Source: Phenylobacterium deserti (GTDB taxonomy: Bacteria; Pseudomonadota; Alphaproteobacteria; Caulobacterales; Caulobacteraceae). From it: a stretch of 64,000 nt of DNA. The notes below the pieces were generated by a model that worked only from the letters and a program-made list of their open reading frames with translations, had not been told where the DNA came from and searched no databases. Positions within the stretch are counted from its first letter, which is position 1; each line of letters begins with the position of its first letter. The position numbers and the translations under genes were made by a program. Below, piece after piece: positions 28,364-63,557 of this stretch. Location of the stretch: positions 62,001-126,000 of the forward strand of contig NZ_QFYR01000003.1 in assembly GCF_003254705.1 (NCBI RefSeq), given 5' to 3'.

Positions 28364-28556
28364 CGGTTCAGCCGCAGAATCCCAAATTGCATCGAGGTTG
28401 GACGTCGCGCTCTCCCGTCCCTCGAAGCGGCGGCCAATCTGATGGAACGACACGCCCATCGGCGGCGCGCCACCCTCCCAGGTGGCGCGCCGTTTCCATT
28501 TGGGCCTGCGCCATTGGCCCTTGCAAGGGCGGTTCGCCTTCCGCACCTTCCGCCCG

Positions 28557-59572: not shown

Positions 59573-59850
59573 GCCTCGCCCACGCCAACGACGCGGTGGG
59601 CGAAGCCGCCAGCAAAGCCGCCCTCTGGGCCATGTTCCTGCGGGACAACCTGTTGGTTGCCTCGGCGAGCAGCGCCAGCCGCGAAGCCCGGTTGGAGGCC
59701 ATGGTCAAGGTCGCCACGGACTGGAACCGGATGGTTCGGGCAATGACCGATCTGCTGGATGCCGCGCCCAACTCGGCGCAAGCCGGCAACGAGTACGACG
59801 CCAAGCTTAGGGACTTCATCGAGACCAGACTGGGGGCTGAGCATGAGTGA
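59569..59850 (+). CDS. Hypothetical phage protein
   Basis: A 93-residue, fully helical protein (NDAVGEAASKAALWAMFL; LEAMVKVATDWNRMVRAM). ATGA overlap with the replication gene and an eight-base overlap with the NusG-like gene. No function recognised. Confidence 0.6.
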   Translation: MSLAHANDAVGEAASKAALWAMFLRDNLLVASASSASREARLEAMVKVATDWNRMVRAMTDLLDAAPNSAQAGNEYDAKLRDFIETRLGAEHE

Positions 59851-60364
59851 AAGTGCCTGGTACGCCGTGAGGACTGCGACGCGGAGGGAGCGCAAGGCTC
59901 TCCAGTCGCTGAACGAGTTCGGCTTCACCGCCTTCCTGCCGTGCGAGACGCGCTGGACCCATGACCGGAACGGCAAGGACGTGGCCTATAGCCCGCTCTT
60001 CCCCGGCTATCTCTTCGTGCTGATCCGCCCCAGCGAGATCCACGACGTGCTGGAGATCGACGGCGTCCACGACTTCGTCCGCTGCATCGACGGAAGCGGG
60101 GAGGCGGCGCCCATGCCGATCCCGGCCAAAGCCATCCTCACCATCCAGGCGGAGGAACGGGCAGGGGCCTACGACCGCACGAAGAGCAAGCGCCGCGTCT
60201 ACCGCCCCCGCAAGGGCGACCGCGTCATGGTTGAGGCGGGCACGTGGCTGGGCTTTATCGGCAAGGTGCTGGCGACGCCTAGGGGCGAGCGCGCGCATGT
60301 GATGCTTGAGGGGCCGTTCGGCCGGGGCGTGACACTCAACTCCGACCAGCTGAGGGCGGCGTGA
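59843..60364 (+). CDS. NusG/RfaH-like transcription antitermination protein
   Basis: A 173-residue protein of the NusG family. The NGN domain covers residues 1-~90 (WYAVRTATRRERKALQSL; LPCETRW; SPLFPGYLFVLI). The KOW domain is near residues 120-173 (KGDRVMVEAGTWLGFIGKVL then VMLEGPFGRG). Its specialised paralogues act on chosen operons to prevent termination. It is placed at the end of the early block, right before a promoter and hairpin-rich leader and the packaging genes, the position of lambda Q. A late antiterminator role is inferred. Confidence 0.88.
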   Translation: MSESAWYAVRTATRRERKALQSLNEFGFTAFLPCETRWTHDRNGKDVAYSPLFPGYLFVLIRPSEIHDVLEIDGVHDFVRCIDGSGEAAPMPIPAKAILTIQAEERAGAYDRTKSKRRVYRPRKGDRVMVEAGTWLGFIGKVLATPRGERAHVMLEGPFGRGVTLNSDQLRAA

Positions 60365-60537
60365 GCCCGACGCTTCAGGAGGAGTACATTCGCGCAGCCA
60401 TTGCGCTTCGTTTCGGCCGGAGCGGAACGTACCTGTGCATGATCCCGACTGGATCTGGAAGGGATGCCTGGTCCTTCATCCGCAAGGTGGCGCAGCTAGC
60501 CGAGCGACACACCACATCTAGCGCCGCGACAACCTGA
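60361..60537 (+). CDS. 58-residue phage protein
   Basis: A GTG at 60361 overlaps the stop of the NusG-like gene (GTGA), followed by an open frame to TGA at 60537. The product is basic (EEYIRAAIALRFGRSGTYLC; FIRKVAQLAERH). It is the last gene of the early rightward block. It is short, but the overlap pattern is the same as for its neighbours. Confidence 0.55.
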   Translation: MSPTLQEEYIRAAIALRFGRSGTYLCMIPTGSGRDAWSFIRKVAQLAERHTTSSAATT

Positions 60538-60553
60538 CTCACCCAATTAGTTG

Positions 60554-60582
60554 TTGCAAAGCTTGCGCGCGCGAGGCATAGT
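60554..60582 (+). promoter_or_regulatory. Predicted late promoter
   Basis: TTGCAA (60554-60559), 17 bases, CATAGT (60577-60582). Transcription would start near 60589, at the first hairpin of the structured leader. A GACTC (GANTC, the CcrM site class recognised by GcrA) is at 60536-60540, 13 bases before the -35 element. Confidence 0.5.
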
Positions 60583-60589
60583 CCAGGCT

Positions 60590-60832
60590 AACTACCGAAG
60601 CAGGTAGCGGGACGCCGGCTGGACCGCAACGCGCGGAACGAAACACTCCCTCAGCGAGGGTGGCCGATCCCCGAGGTACCGGGCACGACGCCGGGCCTCA
60701 TCTGCGAAGCGGTGACCAGACTCCAACCGCGAGTGGGATAGCTAGCGCTCCCTAGCCCAACAGGCCGCGGTTGGCCCAAGACGCCCGCCCGACACACACG
60801 CTTCAGCGCTTTGACCAAAGAGGTCGGAAGCG
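60590..60832 (+). ncRNA. Hairpin-rich RNA or structured leader before the late genes
   Basis: The 317 bases between 60537 and 60855 hold no convincing gene but at least six stem-loops in a row: CTACC/GGTAG (60592-60607), CCGC/GCGG (60624-60636), CCCTC/GAGGG (60648-60660), GAGG-CCGG/CCGG-CCTC (60673-60699), a 9-bp perfect stem CCAACCGCG/CGCGGTTGG (60723-60774) enclosing TGGG/CCCA and CTAG/CTAG pairs, and a ten-pair stem CGCTTTGACC/GGTC-G-GAAGCG (60807-60832). No T-tract ends it. It may be a site where the NusG-like protein loads, or an independent phage RNA. Confidence 0.6.
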
Positions 60833-60854
60833 GGCTCCCTACAGTGAGGACGCA

Positions 60855-61049
60855 GTGAGCTTCCTGACCGATAACCCGGACATCATGATTGCAGCGCTCG
60901 CCATTCTCGTGCGCCGCGCGGGTGGGTCGGTGACCATCACGGAAAGCGAAGTCCCCGGCGAGTTCAACCTGATGAGCAAGTGGGGCGAGGGCGTCCTGCA
61001 CCTGGCGCTCGATGAAGGCGCTGAACTCAATCAGATCGGCACCGCCTAG
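60855..61049 (+). CDS. Small hypothetical phage protein
   Basis: A 64-residue protein starting with GTG (VSFLTDNPDIMIAALAIL), with GAGGA four to eight bases upstream. A helix and a beta part follow (GGSVTITESEVPGEFNL). It is the first gene behind the structured leader. No function recognised. Confidence 0.6.
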   Translation: MSFLTDNPDIMIAALAILVRRAGGSVTITESEVPGEFNLMSKWGEGVLHLALDEGAELNQIGTA

Positions 61050-61659: not shown

Positions 61660-61821
61660 ATGAGCCACATGACCGGTAAGCCGCAGCCCACTGAGACGCG
61701 TTCCGCCCGCCGCACAATCGGGCGCATGAACGACGACCTGAAGAGCTTCCTCCTCCAGCTGGCATCGACTGTCGTTGGAGGCCTAATCGTTTGGCTCGTC
61801 ACCGTGATGGCGAGCGGATGA
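61660..61821 (+). CDS. 53-residue single-pass membrane protein
   Basis: The frame runs from ATG 61660 to TGA 61821 and has one membrane helix at the C-terminus (LASTVVGGLIVWLVTVMASG) after a basic N-terminus. A shorter start at 61726 (MNDDLKSFLL) is possible. The stop overlaps an ATG of the next gene (61818). Its location just before the terminase genes is one where holins or other small membrane proteins occur, but nothing proves that. A hairpin CCCCA/TGGGG lies upstream at 61615-61628. Confidence 0.5.
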   Translation: MSHMTGKPQPTETRSARRTIGRMNDDLKSFLLQLASTVVGGLIVWLVTVMASG

Positions 61822-61835
61822 CAAAGAGAGGCCGG

Positions 61836-62186
61836 ATGGCCGACCAACCTGAAAATACAGGGCGCAAACAGGCAACCCAGTTCAAGCCCGGCCAGAGCGG
61901 CAACCCCAACGGTCGCCCCAAAGGCTCGCGCAACAAGCTCAACGAGGACTTCGTCCGGGCGCTGTCCGATGACTTCGCTGAGCACGGGGATGCGGTCATC
62001 GCGGCCGTCCGCTCCGAGAAGCCTGACGTGTACCTGAAGGTCGTCGCCTCCCTCTCACCGAAGCACGTCGAGGTGAAGGACGAGAGGCTCGATGATCTCG
62101 AACGAGATGAACTTGCTGCTTTCCTCGATGCCGTCCGAGAAGCTCGACGCGCTCGAGAGGCAGATAGCGAAGGCGCTGTCCACTAA
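61836..62186 (+). CDS. DUF5681-domain protein, possible small terminase subunit
   Basis: A 116-residue protein with the motif KPGQSGNPNGRPKGSRNKL near residues 16-34, characteristic of DUF5681 proteins encoded before phage large terminases. It then has an acidic, helical C-terminus. I use the ATG at 61836 with GAGAGG upstream; an ATG at 61818 overlapping the previous stop is in frame. It likely recognises the packaging start. It overlaps the large terminase gene by 95 bases in another frame. Confidence 0.75.
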   Translation: MADQPENTGRKQATQFKPGQSGNPNGRPKGSRNKLNEDFVRALSDDFAEHGDAVIAAVRSEKPDVYLKVVASLSPKHVEVKDERLDDLERDELAAFLDAVREARRAREADSEGAVH

Positions 62187-62835
62187 GGATGAGGGCCGCA
62201 AGCTATGGACCTACTACCCGGCGACGGGGCCGCTTCGGCGCGACCTCTACGCCAAGCACATGGCATTCTTCGCCGCGGGTAAGGTCCACCGGGAGCGCGC
62301 CGCGATGGCTGCGAACCGGGTAGGGAAGACCGAAGGCATCGGAGCCTATGAGGTGACCCTTCACCTCACGGGTCTCTACCACACCGACGACTTCGCGTGG
62401 TGGCCTGGCCGGACCTGGGATCGCCCGATCAACTGCCTCTGTGGCGGAGATACTGGGACGACGACCCGGGACATCGTGGTCGCCAAGCTGCTCGGACCGG
62501 CGAGCGCGCGTGGCACGGGGATGATCCCCCGGGACATGATCAAGCGCATCAAGCCGGCGGCTGGCATCCCGGACGGGGTGGACTACGCGGAGATCGAGCA
62601 CGTCAACGGCGGGCTCAGCATCATTCAGTTCCGCTCCTACGATCAGGGGCGGGAAGCCTGGCAAGGCACCGAACGGGATCTCGGCTGGTGTGACGAGGAG
62701 CCGCCAGAGAGCGTCTACACCGAGCTTCTGCTGCGGACGATGACCACCAAGGGCTCGGTAATCTCGACGTTCACGCCGCTGAACGGCCTCACCAACGTGG
62801 CGCTGAGCTTCATGCCGGAGCTGGCGCCGCAATGA
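62092..62835 (+). CDS. terL: Large terminase, N-terminal ATPase part
   Basis: A 247-residue ATPase half of a phage large terminase. It has a Walker A-like AANRVGKTEG near residue 79, a GRTWDRPINCLCGGD segment, Walker B and catalytic Glu in LGWCDEEPPES near 207, and STFTPLNGLT, the coupling motif. The ATG at 62092 has GAGAGG five bases upstream. The frame stops at 62835, and the nuclease half continues at once in the frame one base back. Full-length homologues have both parts in one chain. Confidence 0.85.
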   Translation: MISNEMNLLLSSMPSEKLDALERQIAKALSTKDEGRKLWTYYPATGPLRRDLYAKHMAFFAAGKVHRERAAMAANRVGKTEGIGAYEVTLHLTGLYHTDDFAWWPGRTWDRPINCLCGGDTGTTTRDIVVAKLLGPASARGTGMIPRDMIKRIKPAAGIPDGVDYAEIEHVNGGLSIIQFRSYDQGREAWQGTERDLGWCDEEPPESVYTELLLRTMTTKGSVISTFTPLNGLTNVALSFMPELAPQ

Positions 62836-63557
62836 GCAAGTGGGCGATCGGCATCACGTGGGACGACGTCCCGCACCTGGACGACGCGACCAAGAAGGAG
62901 CTGTGGGAGTCGATCCCGCCGCACCAACGGGACGCGCGGGCCAAGGGCATTCCGGCGCTGGGCTCTGGCGTCATCTACCCGGTGAGCGAGGAGCTTTGGA
63001 CGGTCGATCCGTTCCAGATCCCTGCGCACTGGCCGCGAGCCTTCGCCCTAGACGTGGGCTGGAACCGCACGGCTGCTGTCTGGGGCGCTTGGAACCGGGA
63101 TAGCGACACGGTCTACGTCTACGACGAGTACTACGTCAGCGAGGCGCCGCCGCAGGTTCACGCCGACGCCATCCGGGCGCGGGGCGACTGGATACCTGGG
63201 GTGATCGACCCGGCGGCTCGTGGGCGACAGCAGCGCGACGGCACGGCGCTCATGACCGAGTACGTGTCGCTGGGCCTGGATCTGCTGCCGGCGAACAACG
63301 AGGTCGAGGCGGGCCTGTTCACGGTCTACCGGCGGCTCGTGTCGGGTCGGCTGAAGGTCTTCAAGACCTGCACGAACCTGATTGGCGAACGCCGCCTCTA
63401 CCGCCGCGACGACAAGGGCAAGGTCGTCAAGGAACGCGACCACCTGATGGACGCCGAACGCTACCTGATCATGTCGGGCATGGCGCGCGGCTGCACCCAG
63501 CCCGAACGGCACTGGGAAGAAGACCGGCGCGGCTACTCGCCAACGACGGGCTACTGA
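62832..63557 (+). CDS. terL: Large terminase, C-terminal nuclease part
   Basis: A 241-residue nuclease half. It begins with MSKWAIGITWDDVPHLDD, a segment that in intact terminases is internal, and has the RNase H-like aspartates in FALDVGWNRTAA near 71, GVIDPAARGR near 118, and DHLMDAERYLIM near 205. The ATG overlaps the TGA of the N-terminal part (ATGA). It is either a naturally split terminase with translational coupling or a -1 frameshift of a single gene. Confidence 0.85.
   Translation: MSKWAIGITWDDVPHLDDATKKELWESIPPHQRDARAKGIPALGSGVIYPVSEELWTVDPFQIPAHWPRAFALDVGWNRTAAVWGAWNRDSDTVYVYDEYYVSEAPPQVHADAIRARGDWIPGVIDPAARGRQQRDGTALMTEYVSLGLDLLPANNEVEAGLFTVYRRLVSGRLKVFKTCTNLIGERRLYRRDDKGKVVKERDHLMDAERYLIMSGMARGCTQPERHWEEDRRGYSPTTGY

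Follow-up and report, generated by a model that had tools for sequence, protein, structure and literature searches.

In the window, which is the whole stretch of 64,000 nucleotides of DNA analysed here, a gene-poor gap at 60538-60854 has the ORF of a NusG-like protein on its upstream side and the first late ORFs on its downstream side. A small ORF ending at 60537 sits behind the NusG-like ORF, and the gap is followed by small ORFs, then by a DUF5681 protein (E 2.1e-11) and then by the large terminase (Terminase_6N, E 5.6e-14; both Pfam). This order, read from the ORFs, confirmed the initial annotation, in which a gene-free stretch had been placed between the early and late prophage genes. Because a 41-kb viral contig of IMG/VR carries an identical NusG-like protein and the same leader, the element belongs to a prophage. 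Positions of the features are listed in Table 1. The large terminase of the window is apparently split into ORFs 62092-62835 and 62832-63557, which overlap by four bases and represent a frameshift or a real split. Elsewhere in the window, the Caulobacter sRNA CC1840 (RF01521, 74.2 bits) was matched at 28393-28491.

Table 1. Features in and around the gene-poor gap, in window coordinates
Feature	Position	Strand	Sequence or content	Basis or remark
Phage NusG paralog, proposed leader partner	59843-60364	+	NGN and KOW domains	Pfam, PHROG
Promoter	60554-60582	+	TTGCAA (60554-60559), 17-nt spacer, CATAGT (60577-60582)	Read from sequence
5' hairpin	60592-60607	+	CTACC-GAAGCA-GGTAG	RNA fold
Three-way-junction core	60609-60671	+		Fold, descriptor, covariation, held-out leader
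P1 helix of core			GGGA/TCCC and CGGC/GCCG	
P2	60624-60636	+	CCGC/GCGG	
Linker	60637-60647	+	AACGAAACACT	
P3	60648-60660	+	CCCTC-AGC-GAGGG	
P4 hairpin	60673-60699	+	GAGG.CCGG / CCGG.CCTC	Fold; spacing in relatives
Ops-like element	60702-60715	+	CTGC-GAA-GCGGTGA	Pattern comparison with other leaders
Mini-hairpin sequence	60703-60710		TGC-GAA-GC	
Perfect 9-bp stem	60723-60774	+	CCAACCGCG/CGCGGTTGG, arms 60723-60731 and 60766-60774	No T-run after it
Long hairpin	60783-60835	+	GCCCGC ... GCGGGC	Block similar in G011 and G079, by eye
First small late-operon ORF	60855-61049	+	GTG start	Without known family
DUF5681 protein (probable small terminase) and N-terminal part of large terminase	61815-62835	+		Pfam

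A plausible promoter had been said to end just before the first hairpin, and TTGCAA-N17-CATAGT was indeed found there, within a block (TTAGTTGTTGCAAAGC) common to the window and the G011 prophage; this promoter obtained no score in a mechanical consensus scan. By eye, several relatives have hairpins of a different sequence at the position of the 5' hairpin. The P4 hairpin ends 4 nt before the GC of the ops-like site and is possibly a pause hairpin. The 9-bp stem occupies the place of the intrinsic terminator in rhizobial leaders, and the test for an intrinsic attenuator (GC-rich hairpin plus T-run) gave none on the + strand within the stretch.

The NGN domain of the window paralog scores above the Pfam NusG gathering score (64.3 vs 22.2 bits; E 1.5e-17), the protein matches phrog_6386 "transcription antiterminator" (E 4.3e-19), and a profile of the paralog family aligns to the full NusG and RfaH chains. 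Its scores lie under the cut-offs of the RfaH family (TIGR01955, 56.2 vs 144.5 bits), the UpxY family (NF033644, 77.5 vs 100 bits, which is the top-scoring NCBIfam model), the LoaP family (NF033641, 24.8 vs 125 bits) and NCBIfam NusG. At the positions of His20, Arg23 and Gln24, with which RfaH reads ops, the window paralog has Ser, Glu and Phe.

Conserved parts of the leader in related phages

The initial annotation regarded the stretch as rich in hairpins and as structured well beyond the needs of an ordinary leader. The named hairpins, among them the perfect 9-bp inverted repeat, are present, and their density is at the chance level for GC-rich DNA: the fold of the whole stretch has z -0.60 against dinucleotide shuffles (29 of 100 shuffles are equally good), that of the opposite strand has z +0.89, stems with at least six Watson-Crick pairs number three against 2.99 in shuffles, and the 9-bp stem itself is present in 13 of 200 shuffles. 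Excess structure detected by global folding was therefore rejected for both strands, and the second half of the claim did not hold.

A DNA search of 149 related genomes matched positions 60608-60710 twice in genome G083 (88 and 82% identity), once before terS and once before scaffold/capsid genes, while the NusG paralog of G083 is encoded on the opposite strand, at a distance of about 3.5 kb from the terS copy. Since these copies precede late operons away from the nusG-like gene, the element is a late-operon leader and not merely the 3' end of nusG. The core copies differ by indels whose length is not divisible by three. Further prophages and sequenced phages were obtained when the NusG-like protein and a ten-protein profile served as queries; in many of them the paralog gene immediately precedes packaging or other late genes, at a distance of some 130 to 550 nt. 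About 30 leaders adjoining phage NusG paralogs were compared in sets of 14, 9 and 7, and the core is kept among relatives though the first late genes differ.

Two other properties of G083 were recorded. Its late promoters (L040 13768 and 18464, contig C2, minus strand) overlap GTTC-N7-GTTC, the form of the alphaproteobacterial LexA box, and therefore both the terS and the scaffold/capsid operons may be under direct SOS control. In addition, at L008 10847-14449, host-like genes including an alcohol dehydrogenase are situated between the repressor/NusG-paralog module and the late genes, a separation of modules resembling a decayed or domesticated phage.

When leaders were folded one by one, the three-way junction was obtained also in most relatives, with a stability of single leader folds no greater than that of shuffles. 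A descriptor composed of an enclosing helix, two hairpins and a linker with GATAAG, GAACAG or GAAACA, which was derived partly from the same leaders it was tested on, matched 8 of 23 leaders on the coding strand and none on the reverse strand (shuffle mean 0.02); without the linker words, 14 of 23 leaders were matched vs 5.35 in shuffles. In a MAFFT alignment of six leaders, four of the six pairs of P3 were changed on both sides, and the covariation score was reached by 0 of 500 shuffles. The leader of G913, kept out of the model, was matched at the expected place, and after its addition two-sided changes were found in P1, P2 and P3. A nine-row hand-made alignment was built to fit the structure and was excluded from the evidence. 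No match to Rfam covariance models was found at the gathering score or up to E 5.

Several searches for additional copies were abandoned. A first covariance model (R1), built from three near-identical copies, gave other matches that were weak, chance-like and mostly in coding DNA; exact-pattern scans with the P3 motif in viral and genome collections gave chance matches and zero new relatives; and the weak matches of a second model (R2) in a genome search, none of which had a NusG paralog at its locus, were put down to chance. In G248a, G874 and G894 (L029, L116 and L113), the P2-P3 linker can form a small hairpin, the loop of which (GAUAA or GAACA) is reminiscent of boxB pentaloops.

It is comparison with relatives, instead of folding, which shows at the level of sequence that the stretch is functional; what makes it special, as judged from these relatives, is its conserved and covarying parts, not the number of its hairpins.

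Ops-like sites and the type of NusG paralog

The window sequence TGCGAAGC was noticed by eye before testing. The strict form of ops (GGCGGTAGCGTG, with a GGTA loop closed by C-G) is absent from the window; compared with ops, its CTGCGAAGCGGTGA retains the GC...GC stem and has a GAA loop, and its context is that of ops, i.e. the leader of a long operon apparently served by a NusG paralog. The pattern [CG]TGCG(G)NAGC, near the canonical ops of RfaH, was found on the coding strand downstream of 15 of 25 RfaH-like genes elsewhere in the class and in none on the reverse strand. Near-canonical ops (CTGCGGTAGC) occurs at most about 150 nt behind RfaH-like genes at many alphaproteobacterial loci (L077-L105). 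Phage variants are CTGC-GAA-GC in the window, CTGC-GAA-GCTATGG in G083, GTGC-GAA-GC in G248a, GTGC-GCA-GC in G248b, GTGC-GTA-GC in G266, GTGC-GGA-GC in G894, and GTGC-GAAA-GCTATG in phi3LM21 and JY10.

Because inspection of the first set by eye had suggested the pattern, which was widened later, the sets of leaders were counted apart. In the first 14 leaders, TGCGNAGC was present in five on the forward strand and one on the reverse strand (shuffles 0.68), and in the next nine, TGCGN(N)AGC was present in five, one of them probably within a promoter, and in none on the reverse strand (shuffles 0.89). The last seven, rhizobial phages and plasmid-borne prophages fetched once the pattern was fixed, gave four forward and no reverse sites, a level reached by 1 of 1000 shuffles. 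About half of the first 23 leaders thus counted have the site on the coding strand, and with the patterns used no site was found in about half of the Caulobacteraceae-type leaders. For nine rhizobial-type leaders (the last seven, phi3LM21 and JY10), a wider pattern set after seeing them, GTGC-N4-GC..TG, was present in eight and in none on the reverse strand.

Eight of these nine leaders also have an intrinsic terminator (vs two on the reverse strand; shuffles 0.54), and in all seven leaders having both, the terminator closely follows the ops-like site. In rhizobial phages, covariation was seen in the hairpin that immediately precedes this site, and P4 of the window is at the same distance. An intrinsic terminator was rejected as a feature common to the first 23 leaders (four forward, three reverse, shuffles 1.07).

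Gln24 is one residue by which RfaH reads ops (PMC5995543). A GG[TC]A loop was found in 17 of 18 sites of paralogs keeping Gln24 and in 0 of 10 counted sites of paralogs without it, the G036 leader, whose site is probably in the promoter, being left out; the Fisher value of 8e-7 overstates the case, since the two groups belong to different lineages and G036 is omitted. From this comparison we showed that NusG paralog and site change together, the loop type following the paralog type.

Proposed function and relation to known systems

We consider the stretch to be the promoter and untranslated leader of the late operon for packaging and morphogenesis of the prophage, which contains a putative loading site for the NusG paralog encoded upstream, with a probability of about 0.74. 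Position, conservation, covarying helices and the pairing of loop and paralog have been shown by the sequence comparisons above; the steps that follow are our model. Transcription is expected to start near 60589, and RNA polymerase starting there would make the 5' hairpin, the three-way junction and the hairpin at 60673-60699. The polymerase would then slow down with CTGCGAAGCGGTGA in the bubble, where GC-GAA-GC on the exposed non-template strand could fold into a mini-hairpin that is a variant of ops, the recruitment site of RfaH. Once bound there, the NusG paralog would remain with the polymerase and enable it to pass terminators or overcome Rho-dependent polarity and so to transcribe the long late operon. 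The three-way junction may be a second contact for the paralog or an aid to pausing.

Of the three functions suggested by the initial annotation, loading of the NusG-like protein is best supported, by gene order, the G083 copies, covariation and the match between loop and residue. A late-gene attenuator is partly supported by the terminator after the ops-like site in most rhizobial leaders, but the window hairpin is without a T-run. There is no sign of a separate, processed phage RNA, and the transcript seems to continue into the late genes.

Other mechanisms of action were also weighed. The paralog might recognise structured RNA (the three-way junction or the 5' hairpin) instead of DNA, with the ops-like sequence serving at most as a pause site; LoaP binds a leader hairpin with the help of a downstream pause (PMC12691694), nothing in the leader is more constant among the nearest relatives than the RNA core, and the ops-reading residues of RfaH are absent from phage paralogs. 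We consider this unlikely, as the loop type goes with the paralog type and as the ops-like site and its preceding hairpin are retained in rhizobial phage leaders, where the three-way junction was not found. An ordinary 5' leader, with attenuation or translational control of the first late gene and chance hairpins, would agree with the chance level of fold energy and hairpin number and with the rhizobial terminators after the ops-like site, but it is improbable given helices that covary and a core that stays constant while the first late genes differ. We regard as highly improbable that the leader RNA itself antiterminates on RNA polymerase in the manner of put RNA and the neighbouring paralog serves elsewhere: a compact structured RNA near the start of the late transcript, in two copies in one prophage, would fit this, but the core stays with NusG paralogs, and ops-like sites with matching paralog types would be unexpected.

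NusG paralogs are known from capsule, lipopolysaccharide, antibiotic and plasmid operons. In the papers that we consulted, no comparable phage leader is described; a NusG-like regulator is named in Helicobacter prophages without a site (PMC11321410), and a transcription antiterminator is listed in phiLM21-like prophages without a leader (PMC12429752). At about even odds, phages of Caulobacteraceae and Rhizobiaceae share a phage-specific late antitermination that relies on a NusG paralog in the role of a Q-type protein. The loading site of this paralog would be composite, made up of a new three-way-junction RNA or another leader RNA, a pause hairpin and a variant of ops, with co-evolution between the loop of this variant and the DNA-reading face of the paralog. 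If this is true, late genes of many phages are controlled by NusG paralogs, an RNA element absent from Rfam becomes defined, and the paired changes of paralog residue and loop base provide a natural experiment on target choice by NusG paralogs.

Lambda Q and the put RNA of HK022 act in the leader of late or early phage transcripts so that the polymerase ignores terminators. The action proposed here is similar in place and outcome, but the partner in the window is a NusG paralog, not Q, and the RNA matched no known family in the Rfam search. RfaH is recruited at ops, where the polymerase is slowed (PMC7819879), and shares with the present case a NusG paralog loaded in the leader of a long operon and a GC-loop-GC mini-hairpin of the non-template strand (PMC5995543, PMC7819879). 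The differences are the phage loop GAA (GNA or GNNA) against GGTA of ops, the lack of equivalents of His20/Arg23/Gln24 in the window paralog, and, in the window, a structured RNA core upstream and a phage late operon as the target. LoaP, which needs a leader hairpin and is assisted by a pause, has in common with the system proposed here a NusG paralog, a structured leader RNA, and a downstream pause and terminator in its dfn system (PMC12691694), but it uses a UNCG-type hairpin in leaders of antibiotic operons and the window paralog is far under the LoaP cut-off. Because the element and protein of the window do not pass as ops, RfaH, UpxY or LoaP when judged strictly, we infer that they are a variant that would work like these systems, not a member of any of them.
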